Below the pieces are notes generated by a model. The model searched no databases, was not told the DNA's origin, and was given only the letters and a program-made list of their open reading frames with translations. Positions 3,493-30,083 of a stretch of 33,269 nucleotides of DNA are shown here, piece by piece (position 1 is the stretch's first letter; each line of letters starts with the position of its first letter). The position numbers and the translations under genes were made by a program. The stretch is from positions 1-33,269 of the forward strand of contig CALLWB010000126.1 of NCBI GenBank assembly GCA_938016265.1, read 5' to 3'. The DNA comes from an uncultured Saprospiraceae bacterium. Its GTDB lineage: Bacteria > Bacteroidota > Bacteroidia > Chitinophagales > Saprospiraceae.

Positions 3493-6400
3493 CTACCTCG
3501 GAATCCCTGAAGAAATGCCATTATTCAAATCCCACAACAATTTATCCGCCCCATTCACATCCCCATCCAAATTAAAATCCTCAATTTGGTAGATACTGAA
3601 ATTTCCGTTGCTGCTCTGCCACAATATTTTGTCGGCTCCTGTAATCTCATAGCCTGCAGGATTAAACTGATCTCCATTGGCTGAAAATAGCATCCAAACA
3701 TTGTTACTTTGCAGTTTCTGGCCAAAACCAGAAGGACCCAAATACCCCTCCGTCAATTTAAAATTATAACTGATCGAATTATTCAAAATAGTAACTGGCT
3801 GCGTCGACATCACTGGTAAATGATTACGATGCTCCACTACCACATATAGAGAATTGACCCCAACATCAAGCAACAACTCAACAGGCGCATACAAACTCCC
3901 ATCCTGCAAGAGCAATGCAGCCACTTTGCTGACTTCACTTTCTGCTTGAGTAGTAGTACGGAAAGACAGCAAAACCCAATCTACCGTTCCCGCAGGATAG
4001 TCCGAATTTATCCAGCCAGCACCCTCAGTTCCTAGATAATTCCAAGGAGAAACAGCATAAGGTTGGCCCTCTGGCAGCAGCCCGAATTGCTGAATAGTAT
4101 TATCCATAGTTCCAGTTGCCAAATTGTAAGGCCCTTCCAGATATATCTGCAAGTCGACAGTCACGGCTCTTTTGGCGCAAGGAGTCCCCGGAGTATTTAC
4201 TAGACGGACTTCATAAGGACTCAGCGTAAAAATCTGATCCTCAATCTGTGTAAACTGTTGAGCAATCGTCTTATTCACCAACAACATCTTACTGCAACTA
4301 GCAATCAACTCTACCGAAGAATTGGAACCATTCAAATCTATAAGTGGCGTACCATTGGAAAAATAGTCATGCAGGTCTTTTTGTGTTTGGTGGAAGGGCG
4401 TAGCAACTCCTCCTCCAGGAACTTGTGTATCAGAAAACAGCCCTAATGGATAAAATTCTCCATTGGTAGCTCCTTGTGGACCCCAAATCAAAGCAGTTGC
4501 GGCTCCTGACTTTATAGTATGAATCAAACCAGTTGCCATCAATGCATTTTTTTCTGCTTGAGTCGCATTCGGGTTGGAGGGCATAGCGTACCATTCTGCC
4601 CACCATATAGGAAGTGCGGCAGCATCGGCAGACAAGGTGTCTAACGTTCTAAACCATGCAGCAAAGTCGGCAAACATTTTGGTGTGTTCAAATTGGTCGA
4701 CTAATGTGATATTATCTCTGAAATTGATATTCCAACCATCAATGGTTAGGAAATCTGCACCCCGCTTATTGACCAACCAATAGCTGATGACATCCAGATC
4801 TCTTTTGTCAAATTTTCCCCAGTCGCCACCAATGTCAGAAGCGAAATAATTGGGACCTCCGTAGGTGCTCAAACTCACATATGGCCCTCCGATTTGTATA
4901 TCAGGCCGTACCATTTTTACAGAATCCCAAACATGATTGTACAAATCAGTATACCCTTCATAATCCCAGCGGTTTAAAGAGTCATTCCACATGCCTTTCA
5001 TCTCATTCCAAACCTGTATGTACTTTATATTTTCAAACTCGGGCTGTTGCACAATTTCTTTCACCAATTGAGCGTAATCAGCATAATGACTGGGAAATGG
5101 TGCTTTTACAAAAAACTCTGGCGTCCAATCGGTCTGCCCCGGGATACCACCTTTCATCCAATCAGGCGCACAACAGGCAGTCAGTACAATTGTTTCTGCA
5201 TCTTTACCTGCCCCATTTGTCTTCCCAATACGATTGGCAATAGAAGAAAAATCATAAACATCAGGTGAGATTTCTGGATTGCCTGCTCCAAATCCCATGA
5301 CGTGTTGATTGACGATTGCTGTTGAATTATCTAGTAAGGTTTTGCCATTTTGAATGGCCGTTGGATCACCCCAATTGTCTAGTGAATATTGGGTGAAAGT
5401 CACGCCAGTTCTAAAGGTAGAAGGAATACCAATTGTAGCGCCAGGACAATCATCGGACAATTCCATAGTGCCAAAAGTAGAGGCATCCAACCAGGAATTA
5501 TCAACAGTAGCATTCCAGGACAATTTTGCGTCTCTGCCTCCTGAGGTATCATCGTCATTTACATGAATATCGATCCCTAAAGATTGACCATCCGATAGGT
5601 TTACTCCAATAAATGACCAGGCGACACTGATCTCCATTTGATATCCGTCAGCAGTAACAACTTGCATCATTTCTACTCCGACGGGGTTATCCGCTGGTCC
5701 TGATGGGTAATAAATATAGGTTTCATTCACGCCAAAAACTAATTGATGATCATTGGCATCATAGGTACTCGATTTTTCATTTCCTCCATCCAAATACAAC
5801 TCCAAACCGTCATCCTGCCAAGCACTTGGCGAGTCATTGAGGAGTACTTCATCTGTTATTTTCCCAAAAATATAAAGGTAGTTATCATCATAAGTAACTT
5901 GAAATTCTGCTTTTAAATCTCCTGGAGAAACGATCCCGCCTTCCAGGAAATTTGATAGCTGATAAGTGGTATCTGTTTGCCAGTCGTCGTTTTGTCCGTC
6001 AAGTATTGGGGGAGCAAGTGTTTTGCAAATAGTGTTATTGGTATTTGAAATGGGCGTACCAACACAATTGCAATTTCCATCTTCCAAATCAGGAAAGGTA
6101 GTTGGATCATTATCATCACAAGGAGTCCCGACTATTGGGCAGGATAGGCCACGCTCATAAGCTCCAAAATCCCAGCCATTCCCCTGTGGTCTGGATGTGC
6201 TAAGAATGTCATCATTAAATGCCCCATAAGTCATGGCTCCATCAACAGCCGTAGTAGAGGCCTGTAGATTAAAGCCGCTTCCCTCTCCTGGTCCTGCATC
6301 TGCATTTCCGGTTAATGGCCCGACAAAGTGGGCTGTATTTGCTTGCAAATCTGTAGAGGAATTTGCAACGCCGCCACTTAAACTCGAAAGCAGATTGTTT

Positions 6401-7551
6401 CTGGAAATCACGTTTGGAATGATGACATTCGGATCGAGGTAATTGTTGATACAATCCTGAGAGCAGTCCCAAATCGTGTTATTGTAAATGTCTACTTGCC
6501 TAGCATTCGGATTTCCAAAACCATAAGCAGAGGGGGACGCACTATCGTCATTATGTACTTGTATGACATGTCTGAATGGCCAAGAAATGGATCTGGTTTC
6601 CACATTCCAGATTACATTGTTTCGCACGGTGGTTTGACCATGTCCGATAGCAATGGCTTGTGCATAATCCCTTCCAGAGGTGATGTTCCATATCCAATTT
6701 CGTTGTACGAGGTAGTTGCCATTTTGCCAGTTTTCTTTGTTAAGACCAAGGCATATGGCACCTCCGTACCAAGGCGTACTGTCATGTATTAGATTGTCTT
6801 CAATAGTGATGTTGTAGGTGAATTTTTTAACGTCAATTGGTTCATTGTTTATATTGTAAATGTTATTTCCGCGGATCAGAATGTCGTGGGTTCGGTCGGT
6901 CTTTGTGGAGCCACCTGAACCTATATAGATGCCTTCAGCAAATTCAGGGGAGTAGTTTCCGGTGTCGTATATCTCATTGCATTTGATTTCTACAAAAGAA
7001 GAATTTAGGTTGTCATCGTTCCAATATGCCTGAACGGCCAATGCTGCATCTCCTGTATTATGCACAATGTTATGTTCAATCTTTCCTCCGTTGACATTTT
7101 GAAAAACAATTCCGAATCCTATAAACGTAACCTCAAGTCCACGAACAATAATGTTGTTTCTTCTAGCTACATAGACGCCATTGTAGTCTGAATACGGATC
7201 ACCATTTAAGTTGTACCCACCTCCATTGATGACTGGCGATTGACCATTTCCTGCCTGAATGACAATAGGATTGGCTGTTGTTCCATTAGCATGCCCTAAG
7301 GAGAGGCGGTAGATGACTTTTTGATAGGTGCCAGTTGCCAAGTTGATCACATCTCCCGGCTGTGCTGCATTCAGGGCGGATTCCAGTTGACTTTGATTGG
7401 TTACATTTCTGGTTATACCTGATCCTGTTGGAGAATAAGCCTGGTAAGTCGGACAAACATTTACTGGATAGTTTGCAGGACTTTCAGCTTGAACTTTAAC
7501 GAGATTTAAAATTAAAAAAAAGGAAAACAAAGAGAAAAATGGAAGTTTCAT
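3493..7551 (-). CDS. Secreted beta-helix / CBM9 / clan GH-A-like glycoside hydrolase with dockerin-like tail, 1352 aa
   Basis: Domain order: signal peptide (1-22, cleavage after VQA); right-handed parallel beta-helix (about 36-470; 'PGDVINLATGTY' entry, many NNxIW/NxIxN turns), as in pectate lyase- and chondroitinase B-like proteins; Cys linker (about 472-500); CBM9-like domain (about 505-703; 'PPILDG', 'DDGLELYLDGGNEK', 'DANDHQL'); clan GH-A-like (beta/alpha)8 domain (about 710-1100); and the shared C-terminal module (about 1130-1352). In the hydrolase, WNE places a probable acid/base at Glu850, and WWAEW places a probable nucleophile at Glu986. These, with 'DVYDFSSI' and 'APDWMKGG', resemble GH39-like enzymes. 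The substrate cannot be read from sequence. The last segment holds one intact calcium loop (DFNLDGDVNGAD, about 1325-1336). It shares its tail with the next two minus-strand genes. Confidence 0.9.
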   Translation of the reverse strand: MKLPFFSLFSFFLILNLVKVQAESPANYPVNVCPTYQAYSPTGSGITRNVTNQSQLESALNAAQPGDVINLATGTYQKVIYRLSLGHANGTTANPIVIQAGNGQSPVINGGGYNLNGDPYSDYNGVYVARRNNIIVRGLEVTFIGFGIVFQNVNGGKIEHNIVHNTGDAALAVQAYWNDDNLNSSFVEIKCNEIYDTGNYSPEFAEGIYIGSGGSTKTDRTHDILIRGNNIYNINNEPIDVKKFTYNITIEDNLIHDSTPWYGGAICLGLNKENWQNGNYLVQRNWIWNITSGRDYAQAIAIGHGQTTVRNNVIWNVETRSISWPFRHVIQVHNDDSASPSAYGFGNPNARQVDIYNNTIWDCSQDCINNYLDPNVIIPNVISRNNLLSSLSGGVANSSTDLQANTAHFVGPLTGNADAGPGEGSGFNLQASTTAVDGAMTYGAFNDDILSTSRPQGNGWDFGAYERGLSCPIVGTPCDDNDPTTFPDLEDGNCNCVGTPISNTNNTICKTLAPPILDGQNDDWQTDTTYQLSNFLEGGIVSPGDLKAEFQVTYDDNYLYIFGKITDEVLLNDSPSAWQDDGLELYLDGGNEKSSTYDANDHQLVFGVNETYIYYPSGPADNPVGVEMMQVVTADGYQMEISVAWSFIGVNLSDGQSLGIDIHVNDDDTSGGRDAKLSWNATVDNSWLDASTFGTMELSDDCPGATIGIPSTFRTGVTFTQYSLDNWGDPTAIQNGKTLLDNSTAIVNQHVMGFGAGNPEISPDVYDFSSIANRIGKTNGAGKDAETIVLTACCAPDWMKGGIPGQTDWTPEFFVKAPFPSHYADYAQLVKEIVQQPEFENIKYIQVWNEMKGMWNDSLNRWDYEGYTDLYNHVWDSVKMVRPDIQIGGPYVSLSTYGGPNYFASDIGGDWGKFDKRDLDVISYWLVNKRGADFLTIDGWNINFRDNITLVDQFEHTKMFADFAAWFRTLDTLSADAAALPIWWAEWYAMPSNPNATQAEKNALMATGLIHTIKSGAATALIWGPQGATNGEFYPLGLFSDTQVPGGGVATPFHQTQKDLHDYFSNGTPLIDLNGSNSSVELIASCSKMLLVNKTIAQQFTQIEDQIFTLSPYEVRLVNTPGTPCAKRAVTVDLQIYLEGPYNLATGTMDNTIQQFGLLPEGQPYAVSPWNYLGTEGAGWINSDYPAGTVDWVLLSFRTTTQAESEVSKVAALLLQDGSLYAPVELLLDVGVNSLYVVVEHRNHLPVMSTQPVTILNNSISYNFKLTEGYLGPSGFGQKLQSNNVWMLFSANGDQFNPAGYEITGADKILWQSSNGNFSIYQIEDFNLDGDVNGADKLLWDLNNGISSGIPR

Positions 7552-7615
7552 AGGACCATAGGTTAATTAATGAAGCAATAAAATTGGACATTCAAAAATT
7601 AGGCTATGAGAAAAG

Positions 7616-7637
7616 ATTGAACCGAGTTAAGTTCAAT
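7616..7637. promoter_or_regulatory. Perfect 7-bp inverted repeat, candidate operator
   Basis: ATTGAAC (7616-7622) and its exact complement GTTCAAT (7631-7637) are separated by 8 bases, about 65 bases upstream of the start of the large minus-strand gene at 7551. A ten-base direct repeat AAGTAAAAAT lies just beyond (about 7641-7660). The symmetry and place fit a dimeric regulator's site, but short inverted repeats arise by chance in AT-rich DNA. Confidence 0.28.
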
Positions 7638-7781
7638 TCTAAGTAAAAATAAGTAAAAATTATTAAATATAAAGATGTATTTACTTAAAGGTTAATGATT
7701 TAATGAAACACTGAAGTTGGTGATTTAGGATTTGTTTAGGAGCAAGCCCCTTAAGTCAAACCTAACAACATCGCTATATGG

Positions 7782-10700
7782 CTATTTAGGAACAGAAGAA
7801 GAAATACCATTGTTGTAATTCCACAATAATTTATCTACCCCATTGACATCACTATCCAGGTTAAAGTCCGTTGGTTCATACACACTGAAATTTCCATTCA
7901 TAGATTCCCAAATTCCTTTGTCGGAACCAGTGATCTCATATCCGGAAGGATTTGTTTGATCTACGTTTCCTGCATATAGCATCCAGCTCCCACTGACCTG
8001 TTTTTGGCCAAACCCGTTCGTTCCAAGATAAGAATTTGCCGCTCTAAAATCATAAATAATGGTGTTGTTCAGAATGTCAACCGGGCCAGCACTCATCGCT
8101 GGCAAATGATTCCGATGTTCCACCACAACATACACCGAGTTAATCGCTTGACTAATAGCAATCGGAGCCGCCGCTTGAATTGTACCATCCTCCAACAATA
8201 CCGCCGAAAATCGAGCAATCTGATCTTCTGCCAAAGGAGACGTCCGCAAAGAAACCAACACCCAGTCTACAGAACCAGCAGGGTAGTCCGTATCCGTCCA
8301 GCCAGCTCCCTCTTGACCAGTGTAAAACCAAGGCGCATCGGTATACGGTTGTCCTTGAGGTAATTTGTTGTATTGTTGCAAATAAGTCGTCATCAAACTC
8401 GTTGCAGGATCAAAGGTTCCTTCGAGGAGCACAGTAGGAATGCAATCCACCATCCGGTTCAAATTGCAATGGTTTGATAAGGTGACGGTATTAAATAAGC
8501 TTGGATTATTCCAGGATTGATCGGTATTGGTATACCAGGCTAGTTTTTTATCGCTGTCTCCACCATCATCATCGTCGATGACATGAATATCCAAACCTAA
8601 ATCCATTGCTGGTGAAGGAGTTATTCCAATAAAAATCCAGGCGATTCGGATTTCAATTTCATAGCCTCCCGAAACAACATTCCTGGTGAAATCGACACCT
8701 GCAGGATTTAAAGATTGATCCGACCAATAATTAACATCGGGGTCATTTACCCGAAACATCAGCTGATGGTCATTTGCATCATAGGTCGTTGTCTTTTCGT
8801 TGCCGCCGTCTATGTACACTTCAAAGGCATCGTCTTTGTAGGCGGCGGTGCCTGAATCGTTGACTAATACATCGTCCTTGATGTCGCCAAAAATATATAA
8901 GTAGTTACCGTCCCAACTCACTTGAAAGTCGCCACTCAAATCTGCCGAAGAACCGACTATTCCATTTAATGGATTGGTCAAGGTAAAGTTGGTTTGATTC
9001 CATTCATTACCTGAGCCATCTAATATTGGAGGAGTGGATGTTTCGCAAACAATGGTACCTGTGATGATTGGTGTGCCAATACAATTGCAGTTGCCATCTT
9101 CCGTATCCATTGTGGTATTTGGGTCGTTGTCGTCGCAAGGAGTTCCTTGAGGCTGGCAGGAGGTATTACAATTTGCGTCAAGCGAATAGGTCCCAAAAAG
9201 GGTAGGGTTAGACCATGCCTGATCAATGGTAGAGCTCCATGCTATTTTTTTATCCCGGGCTGCCCCATCATCGTCGTCATTAACATGAATGTCAAGGCCT
9301 AGCAGATTGTTATTACTAGGAGTCGCTCCCAGGAATACCCAGGAAAGTTGGATTTCGATGACATAGCCAAGGTTGGTTGGCGTCATTCCAAAACTTACCC
9401 CAACTGGATCATTCCCCGCTCCTGAATGGTAATAAACAGTAGGATCATTATATAAAAAGAGCAATTGATGGTCGTTGGCATCATAACTTGTCGCTTTTTC
9501 ATTTCCAGCATCAATGTATACTTCAAATCCGTCATTTTCCCAGGAGTTTCCGCCATCATTGATCAATGCATCATCCGTCACTATTCCAGCAAGATATAGA
9601 TTGGTGTTATCCCATCGGACCCCAAATTCCGCAGAAAGATCCCCATTGGAACCAATCGTCCCGGAAAGAATGTTGGTAATTGAATAGGTTGGAAAGGTGC
9701 CCCAATCAGTGAGGTCGCCATCTATTGTCGGAGCGGTTATAAACTGACAAATTTTGTAGTAAGGAGAGTTATCGTCGTTATCACAAATCCCATCTTCATC
9801 ACTATCCAGAAAGGTTCCTGCACAATTGCAATTGGCAGTATAGAAGTCGTTTGTTGTACAGCTATCATTATCATTGCAAGTAGTTCCAATCAAGCTGTTA
9901 TCAAAACCAGGGCAAGTATCTAGCCCATCAGGAATCCCATCATTGTCTGTATCACAAGCATTCACAGTATTGGAAGGGATGCATGGATTGTTGTCGTCGG
10001 GATCCTGGTCGTCTGGAGTCCCATCATTGTCCGCATCTGGAGCCGTATTGCATACTCCATCTCTGCCTGCTGCCTGCCATTGTGCATAAGTCTGCTGGAT
10101 ACCGTTGATCCAATGAAAGGTCATGTTGTTTGGATTGTCATACGTATTGCAAAGAAACTGAAGGTTTGAAGCGTTAGAAAGCTGTCCATTTCCAGAGGCG
10201 GCTGCTCCAACTCCGGTTTCTACTGCTCCATTTATGGTGTTGTGCTGGATGGTCACATTTTCTGAAACAAGTGTCAGGTCGCTAATCCCACCGAAAAAAT
10301 CCACTTCATGTTGGTTGGATGGGCGGTAAGTTTGTTGGATGACAATACCACCTCTAGAACCAGTGACCGTATTGTATTCAATCAAAACATCCTTTGATTC
10401 CGCACTAGTGATACCGCCTGCTGACCAATCGGTGGTGATGTTGGACCAGGCATAGGTGTTGTTTACACAGTTGTTGTAAGCGATGTAGGCATTGTCTGAA
10501 ATTTCATAGAGAATACCATGGCTAAAATGGTCGTAAACATAGTTGTTGATGATCTCAAAACCATGGCAAGCAACATCTCCCCATATCCCAACTTTGTTGT
10601 TGTTGTAAACTTCATTATCTCTGATTACTACGGGGTCTGCGGCAGACCCTGCTTGTGTTAGTTTGATTCCGCCTCCATTGACATAGGATCCAGGAGCAGC

Positions 10701-11315: not shown

Positions 11316-11433
11316 GATTTATTGATTTTGTAGAGGGACAAATTAATTTTTATGTTATTAAGTAACCTACAACAAGAGACGGTTTAACATGCCTACCCTT
11401 TCCTAGTAACTTAATAGCCCAGTCACTCAATAA

Positions 11434-14400
11434 CTACTTAGGTACACTTGATGAAATTCCATTATTATAATTCCAAAGCACTTTATCGACTCCATTGACA
11501 TCACTATCCAAATTGAAATCAGTTGGTTCATACACACTGAAGTTACCGTTCATGTCTTCCCAGAATGCTTTGTCCGAACCGGTGACTTCATATCCAGACG
11601 GATTGGTTTGGTCTACATTCCCAGCATATAAAAACCAACTGCCATTAATTTCCTTTTGGCCAAAACCGTTGGTACCTGTGTAGGAATTTCCATTCCTAAA
11701 ATCATAGGTGATGGTGTTGTTCAATATGTCGACTGGGCTAGGACTCATCGCTGGCAAATGATTTCGATGCTCGACGACTATATATACAGAATTAATGGCG
11801 GTACTTATTTGGACAGGCGCAGCTGGTTGTATCGTTCCATCTTCCAACAATACTGCAGAGAATCGAGCGATCTGATCCTCCGCCATCGGTGAAGTTCGAA
11901 GAGAAACCAACACCCAATCTACCGTTCCTGCAGGATAATCAGCTGCCGTCCAACCATCGCCTTCCTGTCCTTGATAATTCCACGGAGCTCCGGTATATGG
12001 CTGACCCGTTGGCAAGAGATTCGTTTGCTGTAGTTTGTTATTCATCAAACCAGAATTACCGCTGTAGGGACCTTCCAGCAATAGTGCAGGTGTGCAGTCG
12101 ACAAGCCTTTCCATGGCGCACTGATTGGAGAGGGTAACTGTATTAAACAAACTTGGATTATTCCAAGCTTGATCAGTGGTGCTGTACCAGGAAAGTTTTT
12201 TGTCGCTGCCTGCTCCATCGTCATCGTCGACAACATGTACGTCAAGACCAATTTCCATGGCTGGAGAAGGAGTTACTCCAATAAATGTCCAGGAAACCCT
12301 TACTTCAATCTCGTATCCACCAGGGACAATCGTTCTGGAAAAATCTACTCCAGCAGGGTTGGTTTGCTGGGCAGACCAATAAGCAATATCAGGGTCATTT
12401 ACACGAAACATTAATTGGTGATCATTTGCATCATAAGTGGTGGCTTTTTCATTTCCTCCGTCTATGTAGACTTCAAACGTATCATCATCGTAAGGTGCAC
12501 CAGGAGAATCATTCATAAGTACATCGTCGGTTATACTGCCATAAACATAGAGATAGTTATTGTCCCAGCTTACCTGGAAATCTCCACTTAAGTCGATAGC
12601 GGAATTTGTTACTCCATTGAGGTTGTTTGTCAGTGGGTAGGAGGTTTGACTCCATTCGGTGCCCATACCGTCGAGGGTTGGAGGAGTGGTCACTTCGCAA
12701 ACAACAGTGCCGGTTATGATAGGTGTACCTATGCAATTACAATTACCGTCTTCCTGGTCGCTTTGCGTGTTTGGATCTCCATCGTCGCAAGTGGTTCCTG
12801 CTGTCGGGCATACTGCGCATGTTGCCTGTAGTTGATAAGATCCAAAAAGGGAAGGGTTATTCCATGCCTCATCTACTGTAGCGTAGGTGGCTAGCTTTTG
12901 ATCTCGTGCACCGCCATCATCGTCATCATTTACATGAACATCCAACCCGATTTGGGTGCCATTTGCAGGAGTTACTCCAAGGAATGCCCATGGAATAGCC
13001 ATCTCCTTGGAATATCCTCCGGGTATTGAACCCTGGGAAGCTGTAATTCCTGTTGGATTGGTCGCACCAGCACTTAGGTGATGAATGGTGGCGTCATTGT
13101 ACCGAAACAGTAAGTGATGATCATTCCCATCATAAGCAGTTCCTTTTTCATTTCCTCCATCCAGATAGACCTCTATACCGTCATCTTCCCAGACATCCGT
13201 GTCGGAGTTGTTTACTAGTGAGCTATCTGTAACTGCTGCATAAATATAAAGGTTTGTGTTGTCCCAAGTCAATTGGAATTCGACGCTCAGATCTACAGGC
13301 GTTGGTACAATTGGGTTGCAATTGGTCGCCCCACCACCTAGATAATTGAACATTGCATTTTCTCCTGGAGCATTGAAGGAAGATTGCACGGAAGTGAACC
13401 CTAGGCCAGTAGATCCAACATCCCCATTACCCCATTGAAAACGTTCAACATGTCCATAGAGCATCGCGTCTACATTTGCAGCTACAGCTGCTTGGACATC
13501 TTCTAGGACGGCAGCAGCATTTGTAGCGGCACTTCCACAACTTCCTCCCCATGCGCTAGGATCAATGTCTTCATACCTTAATTCTCCCGCCCACACCTCA
13601 TTGGTAGTGGCGTTGTTTACTTCTGTTAAGTGGATTTCTGTTAAGTAAGCTTCCTGGCAATGGCCGGTTTGGGCAAGCTGGATTTCGTTCCAGGATTCAT
13701 TGATGCAGTGTAGTCTGCCTGTTGGCGTTGCTGCAGTGTGATAGGCGATCTTTGGAGCAGTAGAACCTGCTGCTTTGATGCCATTTACCATGTTGCCCCA
13801 AACGGCACAAGGTTCTGCTGGAACATCAAAGTTATCTCCACCCATTACCCACATTTCTAAGGCTGGATGGTTGCCAAATCTGGTTCCTAGTTGGTACCCC
13901 CAGTTGTAGGCATTACTGGTGTTGACATATATTGGGGTGTATTTGTCAGAGGCATAATAAACGCCCCAAGCTGCTACGACGCCTACCTTCAGCCCTCGTG
14001 CCTGTGCAGCATCTAAATAGTCTTCAAACAAATTGGCGTGCGCCGCATTTAGATTGAGGTTGGTACCGTCATAAGAAGCTCCGAGATTGCCATTGAAGTC
14101 TGTTTCGTTGATTCCACCTTGCCAGTGATTTAGATAGGATAGGACGACTCCGTAATATCCTTTGGATTGTAGGTGGTCAAAGTAGGTGTTTACCTCGTTC
14201 ATTGACGCTACTCGAAGGGGCATTTCCCAGGCAGTATCCCAGACGTCGAGACTAGATCCAGTGCCTGTGCAGACTTCTTTTTGAATAAGTAGGTTATTGG
14301 CGTTTGTTGTGGCCAAGGTGCTCCAGACTGGTGCTTCTGGGTTGCCGTCAATTGTAGGAGTGGTGGCGGTATTACAGATAGGTGCTGCAGGACCACAATT

Positions 14401-16659: not shown

Positions 16660-17304
16660 ATGTATTACATTGAACGCATTTATCCTGGTATTTATCAATT
16701 TTTATTACTTTTTTTTGTACTCCCAAATCTAATTTTTGCTTCTGAATCTATTGATTTTTTGGAGGTGGAAAAATGTTTGGAAGAAAGGAGTGTAGTTTGC
16801 AATGGAACAACCTATTACGTTTCTCCAAATGGTTCTGACAGTAATCCAGGAACATTGACCCAACCTTTTGCATCAATGTGGAAAGTGGGTCAGGTTGTAC
16901 AAGCAGGTGATGTTGCTATCTTTGAAGACGGCAATTACATTGAGCCAAATCGGGTGGATTTTAAGACAAACTCAGGAACAATGGATTGTCCAATTATTGT
17001 AAAAGCCAGAAACCAACATCAGGCAAAAATTGTCTTTACTACCGCCTCGCAGGGCGCGCAAAGTATTTGGATCATCAGGCCATACATCGTCATAGAGGGG
17101 TTTGACCTTTCAAAGGAAGTAAAAGGGACTACTACTTCCAATCAGATCATTCGAATATATGGACGAGATGCAATGAATGAATATGGTAATCATGTTACTA
17201 TTAGAGGAAATCAGATCCACAATGCTTTTGAAGAAGGAGTTAAGTCTTATGAAACAACAGGTTTAATTGTTGAGGATAATATTATTTTTGACTTTATACA
17301 TTAA
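16660..17304 (+). CDS. N-terminal fragment of the interrupted beta-helix protein, 214 aa
   Basis: This part carries the signal peptide (about 1-28, hydrophobic run FLLLFFVLPNLIFAS) and roughly the first half of beta-helix 1. It starts with 'GTTYYVSPNGSDSNPGTL' at residue 49, the DUF1565-like entry, and continues through 'VVQAGDVAIFEDGNY' to a truncated coil at FDFIH. On its own it would be an unfinished beta-helix without the C-terminal tail, so a stable function is unlikely. The start at 16660 is chosen because the signal peptide follows directly. Confidence 0.7.
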   Translation: MYYIERIYPGIYQFLLLFFVLPNLIFASESIDFLEVEKCLEERSVVCNGTTYYVSPNGSDSNPGTLTQPFASMWKVGQVVQAGDVAIFEDGNYIEPNRVDFKTNSGTMDCPIIVKARNQHQAKIVFTTASQGAQSIWIIRPYIVIEGFDLSKEVKGTTTSNQIIRIYGRDAMNEYGNHVTIRGNQIHNAFEEGVKSYETTGLIVEDNIIFDFIH

Positions 17305-19533: not shown

Positions 19534-20235
19534 AGCGGCGGCCCACCGACCTACATCCAACCAGATATCTGCTTATGGATGGAGGGGCCATATGATCAAA
19601 ATACTGGGAAGATGCGCACTACTTTAAAGCAAAAAAACATCCTGCCGGATAATGGACAACCCTACTCTGTATCACCTTGGAATCAAACGGGGAACAATGG
19701 GAGTGGCTGGTCTACCTTGTATCCTTCTACTATGGTGGATTGGGTGAAAGTTGGTTTCCGATCTGATGTTAGTGCTGCAAGTACGGTGGTCAGCACAACT
19801 GCTTGGCTGATGGAGGATGGTTGTCTGGTTTTTCTGGAGGAGGAACTACTGGAATCCTATGTTGGCAATACCTATTATATTATCGTTGAACATAGAAACC
19901 ATTTGGCCGTCATGACACCCACAGCAATTACTTTAAATGGAGATGTGCTTAGTTATGATTTTCGGAATGGAAATAGCTATACTGGAGGTGGCGTAGGTGC
20001 CGGCCAAAAGGAGATTTTACAGGGAGTATGGGGGATGTTTAGTGGTGATGGTGAGCAGCTTCTTGATATAACAGGATATGACATAAATGGAGCCGACCAA
20101 TCTAGTTGGGAACCACAAAATGGACTGTTTAATATGTATTTGTCAGGAGATTATGATCTTAATGGGGATGTCAATGCGGGAGACAAAGTATTATGGAATA
20201 GCAATAATGGAGTATTCTCTTTGATAGAAAGGTAG
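17371..20235 (+). CDS. C-terminal part of the interrupted beta-helix protein, 954 aa from an internal ATG
   Basis: Translation could restart at the ATG at 17371, but the product would lack a signal peptide and half of beta-helix 1, so it would not be exported by Sec. Contents, in this frame's numbering: end of beta-helix 1 (to about 212), SprB-like repeat (about 215-290; NDGTISLTANGGSPPYLYVW), complete beta-helix 2 (about 298-722), and the shared module (about 730-954). The module has EHRNHLAVMT and a last loop DYDLNGDVNAGD that keeps D, D, N, D and D at the calcium positions. The first loop (GYDINGAD) is degenerate. No glycosidase catalytic domain is visible; the beta-helices could be lyases or binding folds. 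Confidence 0.75.
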   Translation: MGILSGKRQSRNIQIYNNYIHISKPMLSCCGYGISIGGTGTETNVTGCYNCIGYNNVIVSEVPGEMLRGLVLFNSENSGYYNNIVIGAREGFYTRKFTNYPPNINPSFKNNIVINSTAVAHNLLANSNTGTIDFDYNLYYNNPTQPTEPNSIYADPQFVNPTSDWHLKSTSPAIDAGIAYTFLDNNGGNIDVTHDKDGNVRSIPWDMGVYEFYTCAVLSVSTVVTNESGSNANDGTISLTANGGSPPYLYVWSNGGNTPVVSNLSGGTYSVTITDAIGCQTVESATVGTVTPNTCASGTTYYVAPNGSDNNPGTLAQPFATMWKVGQVVQAGDVAIFEDGNYIEPHRVDFKTNSGTKDCPIIVKARNQHQAKIVFTTASQGAQSIWIVRPWITIEGFDLSKEVKGTSTSNQIIRIYADTTYSNGVVTDIRRGNYCTVRGNRIHNAYEEGVKSYKSKGLLVEDNIIFDFIHEGIDFVAVDSSIIRGNEVYNVTRMGILAGKGGSRSIQVYNNYVHINNVMPVSGYGISIGGTSTLPIGPAAPTKQLGVACYNCIVYNNLVVSETPGLIQEGLAAFGTRDCGFFNNVVIGADNAFYSRHFHAYTGDTISPVNRNDNLSIKNNIIINSQTSTYDFWAGSLGGIVDFDYNLFFNNPNQPTEPNSVYADPQFVDPASDWHLQGTSPAIEAGIGYTFTGYYGEDIEVTKDWDGSIRTVPWDMGIYEFSGGPPTYIQPDICLWMEGPYDQNTGKMRTTLKQKNILPDNGQPYSVSPWNQTGNNGSGWSTLYPSTMVDWVKVGFRSDVSAASTVVSTTAWLMEDGCLVFLEEELLESYVGNTYYIIVEHRNHLAVMTPTAITLNGDVLSYDFRNGNSYTGGGVGAGQKEILQGVWGMFSGDGEQLLDITGYDINGADQSSWEPQNGLFNMYLSGDYDLNGDVNAGDKVLWNSNNGVFSLIER

Positions 20236-20701
20236 ATGGATTATAGTTGTCCTTGAGGGAGGCATCTCTTGTTTTTACTTAGCATTATTCAGTTTACTTA
20301 GGAAGGCCTATGCTAGGAGATAGTGAACAAGTGTAGTAATAATCAAACCTAGAATAATAGATTCTCTTGTTAAGAGAAAGCACTACGCTGCTATTTTTTA
20401 AAAGCTGGAAACCATTGATTTTCAAATAAAAACGTTGTTTTACTAGGAAAAAATAAAAAAACATCCGATTTTGTAACTTACTCCATATTCATAAGAATAA
20501 TAATTGTCCCCTTCTTTCGGAATTGTTGCAGTCGATAGACTATAACAGGCTTTTCTATATTCCCTATTCGTCATTTGATATGTTTTTTGAACTTTAAATT
20601 CACGTTATTTTTACCATCTGAATTGCTTTCATTGAATTGGAACTATTCCTCGAAAGAGGTCTACTAGTTCTACAAAAGATCGTTTACCCAAAATTAACAA
20701 C
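20236..20701. other. Intergenic region, AT-rich
   Basis: This 466-base stretch lies between two plus-strand genes. I found no gene, no clear Bacteroidota promoter (TTG then TAnnTTTG) and no strong terminator stem after the stop at 20235. It presumably carries the promoter of the fibre gene at 20702. Confidence 0.35.
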
Positions 20702-23700: not shown

Positions 23701-24433
23701 TGTCGCAGTCGGATATAACACACTTTGGGCTAATACTGCGGGGGTTTTGAATACTGCCACTGGGAGTGGTGCTCTATTTTCAAATACCTCAGGTGATAGA
23801 AATACAGCTTTGGGGTCTCTAGCACTTCAAAACAATACCACTGGCTCCAACAATACCGCTATTGGAAATCAAGCGATGCTATTAGCAAGTGGGATTAATA
23901 ATGCCGTAGCTATTGGCTTTAACACTCAAGCAACTTCAAGTAACTCCGTCCGCATTGGAAATATAGCAGTGTCTTCAATCGGAGGACAAGTAGGCTGGTC
24001 AACACTCTCCGACGGCAGATTCAAAACCACAGTTCAGGAAAATGTTCAAGGACTGGAGTTTATCAACCTGCTTCGGCCGGTGACTTATCAGTTGGACATG
24101 GATGCGCTAGCTAGTTTTTACAAAACGCCAGAAGATTCACGCCTTAGAGATTCCGAAGCACTAGCTGCCAAGGAGATTTACAGTGGATTCATTGCCCAGG
24201 AAGTGGAGGCGGCGGCTAGTAGCCTGGGGTATTCTTTTCATGGAGTAGATGAACCTAAGAATGCCGAGTCGCATTATGGTTTACGGTATTCGGAGTTCGT
24301 CGTGCCATTAGTGAAAGCTGTCCAGGAACAACAGGAGATTATTGAATTGCAAAATGACCGATTGGAATCGCAGGACAAAAAACTTTCTCTATTGATAGAG
24401 CGCATTGCTAAGCTAGAGACCGCTCAGGAATAG
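20702..24433 (+). CDS. Secreted fibre-like repeat protein with S74-type intramolecular chaperone domain, 1243 aa
   Basis: The signal peptide (about 1-21, ending SIFAQ) is followed by a head found at the start of many Bacteroidota fibre-like proteins (about 24-95; NVGIGTNSPLPSAALEV, GMLVPRMTSTQRAAI, FWYFDGTQWVNL). A connecting region leads to 52 repeats of about 17 residues (161-1066; pattern NTAxGxxALxxNTTGxx), expected to form a YadA-head-like beta-roll. The C-terminus (about 1085-1230) matches the S74 chaperone found on phage tail spikes: Ser1103-Asp1104 with Lys1108 (SDGRFK) as candidate self-cleavage residues, then GFIAQEVE and the closing coiled coil (VQEQQEIIELQNDRLESQ). S74 domains trimerise fibres and may cut themselves off before the Ser. 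A trimeric surface fibre or adhesin is therefore likely. It has no dockerin-like tail, unlike its neighbours. Confidence 0.9.
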   Translation: MKLSKSILFLTLLISSLSIFAQNQNVGIGTNSPLPSAALEVASTDKGMLVPRMTSTQRAAIANPATGLLVFDNSTTTFWYFDGTQWVNLSAGSATGGLTDNDGDTKVEVEKTADEDIIRFTNQGIEMGSMDGQTFHLESPGASVYIGNDAGSQDDGSFRYNVGVGKESMSTNITGARNTAMGYRSLYSNTSGLNNTANGYRALNDNTTGDHNTAIGYSTLNKNTTGEYNTATGSQALNRTTTGDRNTSSGHNSMFYNTIGIRNTAYGASALHRNSSGEYNAAIGYATMYNNTTGANNVAAGRSALQGNTTGNMNVALGVNALYRNTTIDNLVAIGNNALYNNGLGATSSVHATENVAVGSNAMFSNTTGYGNSALGFESLNANTTGVYNTAVGTSVLHSNVSGGKNTGAGTNALLNNTTGFENVATGFSSLRNNTTGSKNTAIGTESQVFNSTGTGNSSLGYRSLFSNTTGSENTAIGKAALHKNTFGSILVAIGDSALYNNGTGVPNSGYNASRNVAIGTKSMYSNTRGFLNVAVGTSSMYSNTIGISNVAVGREALYNNVSGGYNVAVGSNAMFRNTTGSRNTSYGFWSLLDNTTGEYNVANGYHALLSNVSGNNNSALGTSALASNVTGNNNSALGTSAMLRNTTGSANVAIGCHALFNSTEIDHLVAVGDSALFNNGLGLLGANAIGNTGVGSKALLSNQSGHDNTAVGYQTLNRNDAGNSNTAVGSQALLHNYSSGNTGIGAKALLNNLSGFNNTAVGNNALLKNTTGSGNTANGYYALAANTSGGSNVATGFNSLTSNIDGDHNVANGVNALRSNISGNNNIANGGNALRSNVSGNNNVTIGHNSMYSTTSGDDNVATGYYALYQNTTGSGNVAYGNRALYGNTNGFNNIAIGNAALHNSGPSRHLIAIGDSALFSVGQGVCCAIGNIAIGSSALRSNNASSNTAVGYYSLRYNTSGSSNTALGGESLTRNTTGFNNAAFGVRSLFKNITGNSNVAVGYNTLWANTAGVLNTATGSGALFSNTSGDRNTALGSLALQNNTTGSNNTAIGNQAMLLASGINNAVAIGFNTQATSSNSVRIGNIAVSSIGGQVGWSTLSDGRFKTTVQENVQGLEFINLLRPVTYQLDMDALASFYKTPEDSRLRDSEALAAKEIYSGFIAQEVEAAASSLGYSFHGVDEPKNAESHYGLRYSEFVVPLVKAVQEQQEIIELQNDRLESQDKKLSLLIERIAKLETAQE
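21182..23899 (+). repeat. 52 tandem coding repeats of 17 codons (51 bp)
   Basis: I aligned 52 units covering residues 161-1066 of the fibre protein. Most are exactly 17 residues, three are 16, and four are longer (24, 25, 23 and 21 residues, starting at 331, 491, 669 and 912). DNA identity between units is low except for a few neighbours, such as those at about 22544-22648 and 23139-23232, which look like recent local duplications. Confidence 0.9.
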
Positions 24434-24440
24434 CTGGATA

Positions 24441-24497
24441 GTGGAATAGGATTTCAAATATCAGATGAAGGGCCTTTATTCCACTGGGCTGGCCCTT
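24441..24497. terminator. Convergent-gene inverted repeats, candidate bidirectional terminator
   Basis: Between the converging ends at 24433 and 24496 there are two interleaved inverted repeats: GTGGAATA (24441-24448) with TATTCCAC (24477-24484), and AAGGGCC (24468-24474) with GGCCCTT (24491-24497). They overlap, so only one can form at a time. T-rich tails are short, so this is a moderate call. Confidence 0.35.
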
Positions 24498-27400
24498 ATT
24501 CGGTGGGCTTGGGTAGACTAGAAAATATTCCATTATTCCTGTTCCATAATATTCTGTCGACACCGTTTACTTCGCCATCTAAATTTAAATCAGTCTTTAG
24601 ATACTGGTCAAAGTTGCCATTTTTGAGTGACCAGTTTTGCTTGTCAACTCCGTCAATAGTATGGTCAGAATTAATGTCTCCTGAGTATAAAACCCAGCGG
24701 CCAGGAAGTACTTTTTTCTGGCTAACTCCGTTGTAAAAGGAGATCCCATTTTGAGTCGTCAAATCGATAGTAGCTTCGCCGGGAGCTATCGGACCAAACA
24801 TAACAGGCAAGTGGTTTCGATGTTTAAAAACGACATAAACCGAATCACTGCTGAAAGTAGCCAGGTCAATGGAAGAATAGCCATCGGCAGACACGACTTC
24901 TCCATTTCTGCGTAGCAGCGCCAAGCTTCGATTTATTGTTTGGGTGGGATCAGTTGCGGGGCGCAACTCAATTTCTATACCGTCTACTATGCTATAAGCT
25001 CCTGTGTTTTGAAAAATAAATGGAGCTGTCGAATCAGTTGCAGTTGCTAAATCGATTAATTGATTTGGTAATAGAGACTTCATACGTAGTTGGTCACTCA
25101 TCAATAAGGTGGACGGATCCAATGGACCTTCTAACCAAATTTTTGGTGATAGTTTTACAGCATTCAAACATCCCTGAGGAGCGGTTAACTCGAAGCTGAT
25201 GACTGCTGGGAGTTTTGTAGGACTTGGACTGCTCACTGTTAGTGAATAGTGGCCAGGAGGCAGATTAGAAATGGAAGAGGTGGTTTTTCCGTTGCTCCAA
25301 AGGTAGGAATGTAGGCCAGGTTCAATTACATACGCACTGGCCTTTCCGAAATTCATGCAGTCGGGCTCGTTGGTCGTCACTCTTGCTTGTACGGTGCTTG
25401 TATTCGCAAAACTTGCGGGGGCATTGTTCAGCGGGAAAACTACCGTCTGTCCACTTGCTATTTCCAGCGAATCGACTTTTAAAATATGGGCATCACCCGT
25501 TATTTTGCTTTCGAATACATCAATTCCTACTAGCAATTCTTCTATGATAATATTGGCTACCGGGCCATTCAACGGTTTGTCGGGGGAGGAAGTAAACAGA
25601 CCGATGTCAAGCCTTCCAGTTGCTGAGTCATATTGTTCCACCATCTTCAATTCAGCAGGATTTCCTAAAGAAGAATTTGTAATATCCGTATACATGTTGA
25701 TGCTATTACTGTTAGAGATGGAAAAGGAAACTCCCTTTGCAGAAACAGGAAGGGCACTGCTAGTTTTGTGCTTTAGATAAATATCAAAACTACGTCGTAA
25801 ATAGTTGTTTCCTCCAGCGTTGATAATAGAATCGGATAAAGGTATTACATCAATGTAATACGCTGCTTCTGGTGAGGTCGGTTTTGGGAGAAGTGCAGGC
25901 GAGATATTATTAAAATTATTCTCAATAATAATCAAATCTAAACTATCGATTATACCGTTGCCATCGCAGTCCTGATGCTTGTTGTTAATTCCTAGAACTG
26001 TGGAGGGCCAGTTGTTGCTAGATTGTGGCGTCCAGGTTCCGTTTGCGTTTGGTCTTGTTGTTCCCGAATTTTGGTAGGCGATGCCGCAATACAGGACATC
26101 CGATGCTTCTACCAAGCCGTTTCTATTTGCATCTCCAGGATAAACGATAGCGTCGGACAGTAGGAAAATGGTAGTACTGAATAAGGTTAAGTTTGGGAGT
26201 TGGGAATTTGTGACTTCGCAATGATACCAGCCAGAAACTAAGGGTATGAAATGATTGTTTCCTGGAATTGTGCTTACCAACGAATTGTCAAAATACCAAT
26301 GATAAGTATTGTTTGTAGTTGGTTCATTCTCCAGCACGAAATACTGATTTTCAGAGCTATAGATTGGTATCGAATGTTGTTCAGCATACTGGTAAGTTCC
26401 CCCGTTCGAATTGGTCAGCGAATCCAGAAACGAAACGGAGCTTAATAAAGAAACAAATGTAAATTGATTGTCCTTTACATCTAATTCAACAATTTTAGGG
26501 AGATTAGAAAATTCTGGAACTACACCAGTTAGTTGATTGTGTTCAAAATATGCCCATTCTAAGTTTGGAAGATTTGAAAAATTTGGAAGATCACCGGTCA
26601 ATAAATTGTGGGTAACACTCAGATAATAAATACTAGGAATACTTGTGAAATTCGGGATCGAACCTGTCAATTGGTTGCTAGAAAAATTCGTGTATTTTAA
26701 AAGTGGAAGATTCAAAAAATTAGGAATAACACCTGTTAAGTTATTGCTTGATAAATCTAGGTATCTTAAAGAAGGGAGACTGGTGAAATCCGGGATGGAA
26801 CCGGTTAATTGATTACTGGATAAATCCAATTTGTCTAAGTTAGCAATATTTGAAAAATCTGGAATTGAACCTGTTAACTGATTGCTTTTAAGAACAACGC
26901 TCTCTAGATCGGGTAGGCTATAAAAGTAGGGTACGGGTCCAGTGAGTTGATTGCTATGAAAGTTGATGTTTCTTAGGCTCGGAAGGTTTGATAAGTCAGG
27001 AATAGCACCAGTGAGCAGATTTTCTCCTAGAAACAAATACTTTAGAGCAGGTAGCTGAAGATTTGGGATGGGGCCCGTCAATTGATTTTCAGATAAGTTC
27101 AGTTCAAGTATTGACGGAAGACTTGAAAAGTTGGGAATGGAACCTGTCAATTGATTTCCATACAAGTTTATTTTTATGACGTTTTGGAAGTTTGGGAAGT
27201 CTGGAATGGAGCCATTAAGCTGGTTTTCATTTATAACCAATTGTTCTAAGTTAGTTAGATTTGAAAATTCAGGGATAGCGCCTGTCAATTGGTTGCTAGA
27301 AAAGTCAATTTCCAGCAAGTTGGGAAGGCTGGAAAGGCTCGGTATGGTCCCTGTCAATTGATTGGCATACAGAAACAGATAACTTAGTTGGGGGATATTA

Positions 27401-27996
27401 GAAAAGTCAGGGATGGAGGTGGAAAGCAGGTTGTCAGAAAGGGACAAATATTCTAGTTGATGCAATTCAGAAAAGTCAGGGATAGCTCCAGATAACTGGT
27501 TGTTGGACAACGCTAAAAAACGCAAGCTATCCAAGTTGGAAAAGTCAGGAATGGAGTCTGTCAATTGGTTGTAACATAAGGACAAATAGGTTAAATCAGG
27601 TAGGGCAGAGAAGTCAGGAATTGAACCAGTTAACTGGTTGTTTTCAAGAGACAAAAACTTTAAGGCCGTCAATGGAAGGTCTGTTAAATTGCCTACTAAG
27701 TTGTTCCCTGTTGCTGTTTCAAATAAGCAGTCTGTGTTTCCGTCCAAGTCCAGACAAAAAACCCGATTATTTTCAAGGGAGACGCCGTACCAGGTATCTA
27801 TTGGTTGACTTAAATCCCAGGTATTTATCCAGTTGGCACCATTGGTGGTCGTATAAAAATTTACCAGTGCAATCGAGTCTTCCAGACGTGTTTGTCCATA
27901 CGAATCAAAGCAAACTATTAATAACAAGAAACTACAGACAGAAATGGACAAAAAGCGGTGGATCCTATTCCAAATATAAAAAAGTACTTGCTTCAT
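24496..27996 (-). CDS. Secreted LRR protein with internal and C-terminal dockerin-like pairs, 1166 aa
   Basis: The signal peptide (about 1-34) is followed by an LRR N-cap typical of Bacteroidota (about 39-105; LVNFYTTTNGANW, DTWYGVSLE). Eighteen plant-type leucine-rich repeats of 23 residues follow (109-520; LxxLxLxxNQLTGSIPDFSN), forming a protein-binding solenoid. Next come an Ig-like stretch, then a first EF-hand/dockerin-like pair (about 622-690; loops DANRNGLVEASD and DCDGNGIIDSLD), an SprB-like segment (SYLWSNGKTTSSIS), and the C-terminal shared module (about 949-1166). In this protein both tail loops are intact (DINSDHTIDGVD and DLNLDGEVNGVD), unlike in the other four carriers. The EHRNHL signature is KHRNHL here. 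No enzyme domain is visible, so a binding or scaffolding role is inferred. Confidence 0.9.
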   Translation of the reverse strand: MKQVLFYIWNRIHRFLSISVCSFLLLIVCFDSYGQTRLEDSIALVNFYTTTNGANWINTWDLSQPIDTWYGVSLENNRVFCLDLDGNTDCLFETATGNNLVGNLTDLPLTALKFLSLENNQLTGSIPDFSALPDLTYLSLCYNQLTDSIPDFSNLDSLRFLALSNNQLSGAIPDFSELHQLEYLSLSDNLLSTSIPDFSNIPQLSYLFLYANQLTGTIPSLSSLPNLLEIDFSSNQLTGAIPEFSNLTNLEQLVINENQLNGSIPDFPNFQNVIKINLYGNQLTGSIPNFSSLPSILELNLSENQLTGPIPNLQLPALKYLFLGENLLTGAIPDLSNLPSLRNINFHSNQLTGPVPYFYSLPDLESVVLKSNQLTGSIPDFSNIANLDKLDLSSNQLTGSIPDFTSLPSLRYLDLSSNNLTGVIPNFLNLPLLKYTNFSSNQLTGSIPNFTSIPSIYYLSVTHNLLTGDLPNFSNLPNLEWAYFEHNQLTGVVPEFSNLPKIVELDVKDNQFTFVSLLSSVSFLDSLTNSNGGTYQYAEQHSIPIYSSENQYFVLENEPTTNNTYHWYFDNSLVSTIPGNNHFIPLVSGWYHCEVTNSQLPNLTLFSTTIFLLSDAIVYPGDANRNGLVEASDVLYCGIAYQNSGTTRPNANGTWTPQSSNNWPSTVLGINNKHQDCDGNGIIDSLDLIIIENNFNNISPALLPKPTSPEAAYYIDVIPLSDSIINAGGNNYLRRSFDIYLKHKTSSALPVSAKGVSFSISNSNSINMYTDITNSSLGNPAELKMVEQYDSATGRLDIGLFTSSPDKPLNGPVANIIIEELLVGIDVFESKITGDAHILKVDSLEIASGQTVVFPLNNAPASFANTSTVQARVTTNEPDCMNFGKASAYVIEPGLHSYLWSNGKTTSSISNLPPGHYSLTVSSPSPTKLPAVISFELTAPQGCLNAVKLSPKIWLEGPLDPSTLLMSDQLRMKSLLPNQLIDLATATDSTAPFIFQNTGAYSIVDGIEIELRPATDPTQTINRSLALLRRNGEVVSADGYSSIDLATFSSDSVYVVFKHRNHLPVMFGPIAPGEATIDLTTQNGISFYNGVSQKKVLPGRWVLYSGDINSDHTIDGVDKQNWSLKNGNFDQYLKTDLNLDGEVNGVDRILWNRNNGIFSSLPKPTE
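26437..27672 (-). repeat. Eighteen leucine-rich repeats of 23 residues
   Basis: Units run without a gap from residue 109 to 520. Sixteen are 23 residues and two (the 9th and 18th) are 22. The consensus matches the plant-specific LRR class except that the usual second half is shortened to IPDFSNLP. Confidence 0.88.
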
Positions 27997-29144: not shown

Positions 29145-29197
29145 AATTTTAACTTTAAAAGATAATTGTAGTTTTTAATACACGAAAGCGCTAGTTT

Positions 29198-29995: not shown

Positions 29996-30083
29996 AAGTA
30001 AGATTTTTGTTGATGATTGAGCCCACTTCGGAAAGTCGATTCATAATTTGGATTTTAAAAGCAATCAATTTTATTAAATCGGG

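Follow-up and report, generated by a model that had tools for sequence, protein, structure and literature searches.

A probable T9SS-anchored cohesin–dockerin-like docking system in Saprospiraceae, predicted from a C-terminal module shared by secreted proteins

Clostridial cellulosomes are anchored to the cell surface by SLH or sortase. The nearest precedent for the system described here is a cellulosome-like assembly proposed, from genomes only, for Ca. Stygibacter (Cloacimonadota); in the part of that report available to us, the assembly was recognised from InterPro matches to dockerin and cohesin domains, a few dockerin proteins are named, and a T9SS review is cited for the attachment domain of the scaffold (PMC8542988). 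In the available parts of three further papers, the authors state that they detected no cellulosome components in the Bacteroidetes, or the Melioribacter (Bacteroidetes/Chlorobi group), under study (PMC5831590, PMC6247017, PMC3534657), and a T9SS-anchored cohesin–dockerin-like system is not reported for Bacteroidetes in this literature, as far as these excerpts extend. The literature search found no paper on the HRNH/dockerin-like tail described below, and the HRNHL motif returned unrelated hits only.

The window analysed here is a stretch of 33,269 nucleotides from an uncultured Saprospiraceae bacterium (GCA_938016265.1, contig CALLWB010000126.1). A sequence-only reading had attributed one shared C-terminal module to five neighbouring genes, and the alignments confirmed that the five tails, of 218-225 residues, are homologous (pairwise BLASTP E 1.5e-27 to 1.4e-134), with 29-80% identity across about 220 residues and with EG, HRNHL, QK, G-x-D, two W and NNG invariant. 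Each tail is composed of a beta module of about 150 residues, here called the HRNH module, followed by a dockerin-like end. In the gene at 3493-7551 (minus strand; a CBM9, beta-helix protein), the tail alignment placed the dockerin-like part at 3496..3684 and the HRNH module, in the position of an X-module, at 3685..4143. On the same strand, the corresponding two parts are located at 7785..7973 and 7974..8429 in the gene at 7782-11315 (beta-helix and two CBM9), at 11437..11625 and 11626..12081 in the gene at 11434-16047 (beta-helix, apiosidase-like, two CBM9), the latter module forming the first row of the predicted model, and at 24499..24684 and 24685..25137 in the gene at 24496-27996 (LRR protein). 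On the plus strand, the gene at 17371-20235 (beta-helix) carries the HRNH module at 19576..20040 and the dockerin-like part at 20041..20232. This gene and the one at 16660 form one reading frame that breaks off at an in-frame TAA (about 17305), where the upstream beta-helix cargo ends (16660..17304, plus strand), and the tail is found only on the 17371 part. The motifs PYxxxPW and VDWV, ascribed to four of the tails, were indeed present in four of the five, the exception being 24496, which has VDG in their stead. The calcium-loop pattern ascribed to the last segment was confirmed for the second loop, which matches D.[DN].[DNS]......[DE] in 5/5 tails; the first loop fits the strict pattern only in 24496 (thus strict in both loops) and contains an insertion in the other four. 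None of the Pfam or NCBIfam models covers the tail in these five proteins, and Dockerin PF00404 gave no tail match on the full-length proteins, its single hit (24496) being internal. No receptor gene of the kind described below adjoins a tail gene in the window.

Profile searches revealed that the C-terminal 65 residues or so are the part of the tail that matches solved dockerins. At E<=1, a profile of 65 tails from the window's genome had 21 hits in the PDB: 10 carry a dockerin or cellulosomal name, 8 more are, we assume, dockerins of cellulosomal enzymes, and the rest consist of two 'serine protease' chains and one cyanovirin; the best match was the ScaA X-dockerin 2b59 (E 8.8e-5), with 3kcp (E 5e-4) and 5lxv (E 7.3e-4) as further matches. 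The profile of tails from other genomes gave a similar result, matching the solved dockerin 2vn5 at E 2.3e-5. At E<=1, PF00404 matched 36/65 other-genome tails (best 1.6e-10) and 18/65 own-genome tails (best 5.2e-4), and an internal two-fold repeat was detected in 23/24 own and 21/24 other-genome tails sampled. At least one strict loop was present in 137/142 own C-terminal tails, within the last 75 residues, as compared to 1/212 non-tail ORFs of the same loci, and in 54/65 other-genome tails; two strict loops occurred in 36/142 and 34/65, respectively. Class I tails have a canonical second loop and a usually non-canonical first one, with one strict loop only in 60/65 own tails of this class. 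A classing of the first repeat by dialect was discarded as unsound, since it used a fixed split point in the tail, and the second-repeat count alone was used. By its tandem loop-helix arrangement and its similarity to solved dockerins, the tail end is dockerin-like at the sequence level, which supports the earlier suggestion of a docking or sorting tail. The five window tails used alone as a profile found no relative in the PDB (the top hit, a phage tail protein, had E 0.82), and the HRNH module, the first 150 residues or so, had no match to anything known and no significant match among solved structures. In the tail model, pLDDT is about 30-38 in the dockerin part (residue 141 onward), with low-confidence helices at 172-182, 190-194 and 201-207, and a fold search with this model, its dockerin part being of low confidence, returned nothing significant (best E 0.26).

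The extent given to the module, five neighbouring proteins, proved too small, as the tail is genome-wide and far more frequent than chance would give: at least 150 matches were found in the window's genome (150/150 scored, out of 215 first-look candidates), and 158 tails were recovered. The tail is C-terminal in 142/151 cases with a complete 3' end and its conservation reaches the last residues, while at least four tails lie inside longer ORFs. The cargo includes peptidases, adhesin-like proteins with Ig and cadherin repeats, LRR and beta-helix proteins, and several tailed proteins carry carbohydrate-related domains. By a crude rule, 133/134 complete C-terminally tailed proteins have a hydrophobic N-terminal run and only two a lipobox-like site. 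C-terminally tailed proteins lack the usual T9SS domain at their end; therefore, another route across the outer membrane is needed for these proteins. The earlier statement that such HRNHLGVM modules occur elsewhere in Bacteroidota was borne out by the presence of the tail in 51/395 genomes sampled. In viral contigs, 27 pattern matches were obtained, none of which was confirmed as a relative by tblastn.

A candidate for the cohesin-like partner was found in the same genome as a cohesin-fold, T9SS-sorted protein, with 26 receptor domains in 21 distinct proteins. The first domain of the receptor in its Saprospiraceae form (family A5) was modelled with a pLDDT of 94.1, and Foldseek placed cohesin entries at ranks 1-5: 2vo8 (E 4.7e-4), 4fl4_K (5.8e-4; presumably also a cohesin), 2jh2 twice and 3l8q (4e-3). 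These matches are moderate (query TM 0.51-0.58, E<=0.001 for two only), and CBM3 structures come after the cohesins in the list. The predicted model thus indicates a cohesin fold, for the Saprospiraceae family only. By sequence, no relative of this family was found among solved structures. PF00963 did not match the receptor domain itself, and the receptor is therefore termed cohesin-fold rather than a PF00963 member; sub-threshold matches sit in a second domain of two proteins, and the one sub-threshold hit of the genome scan, which pointed to the C48 gene pair, likewise falls in a second domain and not in the receptor domain. The receptors include a four-domain protein of 799 aa with a T9SS tail, a three-domain protein of 974 aa, and five proteins that combine a receptor domain with a dockerin-like tail. 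PF18962 exceeded its cut-off in 11/11 receptor proteins tested; these had been picked from the 21 for their sorting-domain-like ends, the remainder being five tailed and five other proteins. With multi-domain receptors and 158 tails in one genome, the layout is scaffold-like, with the domains as putative binding domains. Since 26 receptor places face at least 150 tails, a receptor gene cannot adjoin the majority of own tails. Across 20 relatives, tail and receptor counts were correlated (Spearman 0.81, two tail counts being lower bounds).

In other Bacteroidota, the tail gene is frequently followed by a gene for a secreted protein that carries a type IX (T9SS) sorting domain: PF18962 was detected (E<=0.01) in 28/56 next genes versus 4/42 one gene further, a count made without L057, which has no following gene within the locus, the other omitted loci being covered by longer stretches. 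The next gene was on the opposite strand in 6/56 tail runs. Of the 44 receptor domains found in other genomes, 36 had a tail on the same strand no more than 1500 bases upstream, as did 19/27 outside the genomes used for the second receptor family, A3, whose profile was made without one L100 protein and a second L099 protein (dropped from the FAM0 cluster). Co-occurrence of tail and receptor was 15/18 versus 19/360 for held-out A3 and 4/4 versus 46/390 for A5 without its own genome, with P values that overstate the association, the sampled genomes being related. Neither receptor profile matched in 15/51 tail genomes, and 3/35 A3 genomes had no tail at E<=1e-6. A3 had no PDB match below E 0.46, and a profile comparison by hhalign did not join it to the cohesin-fold family (probability 1.7%); its cohesin-like fold is assumed from its place and build.

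Taken with the computed tail homology and dockerin similarity, the cohesin fold of one receptor family, the T9SS domains of the receptors, their adjacency and co-occurrence, the likely reading is a T9SS-anchored cohesin–dockerin-like system in which the tail serves as an X-module-plus-dockerin docking tag. The tag would be borne by well over 100 proteins with Sec-type N-termini, among them enzymes, adhesin-like and LRR proteins, and its receptors would be the cohesin-fold domains on a smaller second group of secreted proteins; the majority of these bear an ordinary type IX sorting domain that should place them at the cell surface. We infer that cohesin and dockerin bind specifically, through the duplicated loop-helix face and probably with calcium, and that tailed cargo would thereby be retained at the surface. 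Several cohesin-fold domains with a T9SS tail would make a scaffold, and one such domain with a dockerin tail an adaptor. The cell would thus probably fasten many of its enzymes and adhesins to its exterior, in a manner reminiscent of cellulosomes in unrelated bacteria. Against this reading count the low-confidence model of the dockerin part and the lack of a significant fold match for the tail, the single strict loop of most class I tails, the moderate cohesin matches, the lack of profile similarity between A3 and the cohesin-fold family, the tail genomes that match neither receptor profile and the A3 genomes without a tail, the next genes on the opposite strand, and the excess of tails over receptor places.

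A further proposal, possible but doubtful, concerns export: tailed proteins might dock already in the periplasm on a cohesin-fold carrier bearing a T9SS domain, and the folded complex would pass the T9SS pore, so that one sorting domain serves many cargoes and the conserved gene pair is carrier and passenger. A less probable alternative to the docking-tag reading makes the tail a type IX sorting signal of a new class, which the T9SS translocon would read and might cleave off after export, the neighbouring T9SS protein being another substrate or a chaperone. The C-terminal position conserved to the last residues, the N-termini and the missing T9SS ends of the tailed proteins agree with this, as does the presence of SprA in 51/51 tail genomes versus 252/344 others, which supports the docking-tag reading as well; against it stand the dockerin-like sequence, the calcium-loop motifs and the two-fold repeat, the internal tails, and the partner, with a cohesin fold or of similar build, that many genomes encode close by. 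To our knowledge, the type A and B sorting domains have neither calcium-loop motifs nor a two-fold repeat.

There is little chance that the tail is a calcium-loop stabiliser or surface-polysaccharide binder next to CBM-like domains that bind glycans instead of dockerins. The CBM3 structures in the Foldseek list, the carbohydrate-related domains of several tailed proteins and an HRNH module without an assigned function would fit, but cohesins ranked first with the best E-values, the tail matches dockerins and not CBMs, and the tail and receptor families co-occur and adjoin. The least credible reading confines the interaction of tail and receptor to the two products of each gene pair, which would form a small surface complex of their own, repurposed for another role in the >100-tail expansion of the genus: a single tail match in 33/51 tail genomes (at most seven candidates scored each), many of them with one adjacent receptor gene, speaks for it, whereas the 26 receptor domains, with four- and three-domain and receptor-plus-tail proteins, suit a many-to-many system.

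Under the docking-tag reading, a large set of unnamed C-termini now has a candidate partner and family, the route by which Sec-secreted proteins lacking a T9SS domain reach the surface of these bacteria is raised as a question, and the divergent cohesin–dockerin pairs could be used as orthogonal protein glue.

Compared with the clostridial cellulosome, the shared traits are a C-terminal, duplicated calcium-loop dockerin-like end, a module directly before it as in the ScaA X-dockerin dyads, cohesin-fold receptors both single and in tandem, and adaptor- and scaffold-like architectures. The differences are the phylum and cell envelope, the anchoring by T9SS sorting domains, a preceding module that has no significant solved-structure match, and a broad, mixed cargo for which cellulolysis is not claimed. 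The T9SS type A sorting domain (TIGR04183 / PF18962) is likewise C-terminal, about 75 residues long and found at least 150 times in the window's genome (520 candidates, 150 of them scored), but it differs in sequence and sits on the receptors, whereas the tailed proteins end in the tail. With Ca. Stygibacter, as described in the available part of that report, the system shares C-terminal dockerins on enzymes and a scaffold of tandem cohesins that a C-terminal domain would attach to the cell's own surface (PMC8542988); here, in addition, there are the HRNH module and at least 150 tails, and the receptor domain as well as many tails go unrecognised by Pfam, so that surface assembly of this kind may be widespread in T9SS-bearing lineages and have escaped notice.

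The sequence-only reading had proposed a common C-terminal module in the products of the five genes at 3493, 7782, 11434, 16660/17371 and 24496, and this was borne out: the five tails are homologous, measure 218-225 residues and match each other with pairwise E values of 1.5e-27 to 1.4e-134. The landmarks it listed are present in the alignment of the five tails (A1); four of these tails have both PYxxxPW and VDWV, and no Pfam or NCBIfam model covered the module at E<=1. The Dockerin_1 match in 24496 is internal (residues 675-703), i.e., outside the C-terminal module. In this gene (24496-27996, minus strand), residues ~620-860 comprise that Dockerin_1-like stretch followed by a second domain that is cohesin-like by eye; the same order was seen in a 700-aa protein of C48, another locus of the genome, with a sub-threshold PF00963 match. 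The features 16660-17304 and 17371-20235 (plus strand) belong to a single reading frame that holds two copies of the beta-helix and is broken after ...FIH by an in-frame TAA, and a second tail with one in-frame TAA was found at G000:C5:8649-9290 of the same genome. Between the tail genes, 20702-24433 (plus strand) encodes 1243 residues with many short GNTAxG-type repeats and a C-terminal Peptidase_S74 chaperone domain. At 28338-31073 (minus strand), three similar proteins of 265-329 aa begin with a lipoprotein-like N-terminus and share, close to the end, a conserved YxFRSCxWPW stretch; a Pfam scan of them gave no family over cut-off.

The tail has two parts, a first of ~150 residues and a last of ~65. 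The first was modelled as a beta domain (pLDDT 64-90 in the model blocks to residue 130), for which neither the fold search against solved structures nor the PDB sequence search with the five-tail profile gave a significant match. The last ~65 residues are dockerin-like, on the evidence of their two-fold repeat, their calcium loops and profile matches to Dockerin_1 and solved dockerins. The internal repeat scored above all 30 shuffles in 23 of 24 tails sampled from the window's genome and 21 of 24 from other genomes, where tail ends mostly show two similar repeats. One or more strict calcium loops were present within the last 75 residues of 137 of 142 own tails and within the last 90 of 54 of 65 other tails, against 1 of 212 background ORFs. 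Dockerin_1 matched 36 of 65 other tails (best 1.6e-10) and 18 of 65 own tails (best 5.2e-4) at E<=1. When the five window tails and 60 randomly drawn ones were combined into a profile (65 own tails), its top PDB match was the X-dockerin of ScaA (E 8.8e-5). Of the 21 matches, 10 bear a dockerin or cellulosomal name, 8 further ones are presumably dockerins and three are other proteins. Two of those three are the "serine protease" chains 8x39 and 8x3a, and the displayed alignment, that of 8x39, spans both loops. Against the dockerin reading count the poor model of this part (pLDDT ~30-38) and the presence of only a single strict loop in 60 of 65 class I tails of the window's genome. At least three dialects of the second repeat occur there (n=147; I 84, II 58, III 4, one unclear), which may point to several specificities.

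In the window's genome, A1 matched all 150 candidates scored out of 215 at first look, giving at least 150 tails; tails of the usual type IX sorting (T9SS) kind also number at least 150 (150 of 520 candidates scored). The fetched loci yielded 158 distinct tails, with 15 residues or fewer before the stop in 142 of the 151 having a complete 3' end, and at least four tails lie inside longer ORFs. Among 395 Bacteroidota genomes drawn, the tail was detected at E<=1e-6 in 51 (42 of 171 genera), as a single match in 33 of them (up to 7 candidates scored per genome). In a draw of 20 relatives, the two other genomes of the same genus carry 72 and at least 150 tails and one other genus 65, and the tail is absent from 12.

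In 17 of 20 neighbourhoods, mostly from single- or low-copy genomes, the tail gene is immediately followed on its own strand by a member of one gene family (A3), the gap being -26 to +42 bases in 16 cases and 305 in one. Its members have a hydrophobic N-terminus and a first domain that is beta-rich by eye, and a T9SS sorting domain was over cut-off in three of five scanned. A3 was found in 35 of the 395 genomes, 32 of them tail-positive; after removal of the 17 A3-source genomes, the tail was present in 15 of 18 A3-positive versus 19 of 360 A3-negative genomes. A second candidate receptor family, A5 (42 sequences from Saprospiraceae MAGs), occurred in 5 of the 395 genomes, all tail-positive, and is independent only for genomes other than the window's, because its seed was first met adjoining a tail gene there. 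Of the 44 A3 and A5 domains outside the window's genome, 36 follow a tail at a distance of no more than 1500 bases (held out, 19 of 27).

The A3 and A5 profiles had no match in 15 of the 51 tail-positive genomes, where the gene after the tail is often of the same build. Over 56 tail runs from 43 of the 51 genomes (the window's and seven others being outside the set), the next gene was on the same strand in 50; PF18962, the T9SS domain, matched at E<=0.01 in 28 of 56 next genes versus 4 of 42 one gene further, where the stretch reached. Fifteen of the 56 are A3-type, and of the PF18962 results, tabulated as totals, loci L084 and L097 are individually known to fall outside the 28. The list of genomes positive for SprA, when read off by eye, included 51 of 51 tail genomes versus 252 of 344 others. 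In the L084-L098 neighbourhoods, long paralogous proteins adjoin the single tail gene; at several of these loci an OmpA-type protein, common to different families, is encoded 3' of the receptor gene (6 of 42 next-but-one genes). The tailed protein L102:7737-10241 (plus strand; genome G124), directly before a receptor gene, contains three similar domains, cohesin-like by eye and interleaved with ASH/HYDIN Ig domains, for which a Pfam scan gave no cohesin call.

The A5 domain model (mean pLDDT 94.1) was compared with the PDB by Foldseek, and the top matches were 2vo8 (E 4.7e-4), 4fl4 chain K (5.8e-4), which we take to be a cohesin, 2jh2 (two chains) and 3l8q. Cohesin entries in this list include 2vo8, 2jh2, 3l8q and, at rank 7, 6kge; only two matches reached E<=0.001, and CBM3 structures appear from rank 6 on. 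The best structural matches of the predicted A5 domain are cohesin entries. By sequence alone, A5 gave nothing convincing against the PDB (best E 0.057). Profile comparison gave no similarity between A3 and A5, so that a cohesin fold for A3 is assumed.

The A5 search of the window's genome gave 26 domain places, which in the fetched loci belong to 21 distinct proteins. Some of these combine a single A5 domain with a T9SS domain, the latter being over cut-off in 10 of 10 tested; one 799-aa protein has four A5 domains and a T9SS domain, one of 974 aa has three A5 domains, and five proteins end in a dockerin-like tail after an A5 domain. At C48, a gap of 33 bases separates a receptor-plus-tail gene from the next gene, which encodes a receptor with a T9SS domain. 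Cargo was surveyed in a random, size-limited sample of 51 of the 134 complete tailed proteins, and the first 25 of 76 families include Ig and cadherin repeats, subtilases, M36 peptidases, CBM4_9, beta-helices and LRRs. This mixture therefore points to broad surface display; a cellulase machine was dropped as a reading since the cargo spans peptidases, adhesin-type repeats, beta-helices and LRRs. By a crude rule, 133 of the 134 proteins have a hydrophobic N-terminal run, a number that falls to 125 under a stricter rule; 2 have a lipobox-like site.

We propose that tailed proteins would pass through Sec, that receptor proteins would pass through Sec and the T9SS and become anchored, and that the dockerin half of the tail would bind the cohesin-fold domain, keeping the cargo on the cell surface. 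The computed support consists of the parts, the fold of one receptor family, and the pairing via gene order and co-occurrence. For the cargo route over the outer membrane, the tail may double as an export signal, or the receptor protein may carry the cargo out with itself.

Cellulosomes comprise an anchoring scaffold, a multi-cohesin scaffold, an adaptor and docked cargo, and the receptor and tailed proteins of the window's genome are alike in layout. A search of the open-access literature, with most subscription papers outside its scope, found no description of this tail. According to excerpts of three papers, the Bacteroidetes or Bacteroidetes/Chlorobi genomes that they examined yielded no cellulosome parts (PMC5831590, PMC6247017, PMC3534657), and the word Bacteroidetes is absent from the main text of a survey, published in 2024, of the genomes of bacteria that display cellulosomes. 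Pfam dockerin domains have been noted in some Bacteroidales single-cell genomes, a cohesin there only in a Christensenellales one. For Cloacimonadota, a proposal with the same logic as the tail-receptor system has already been published, according to excerpts of that paper (PMC8542988).
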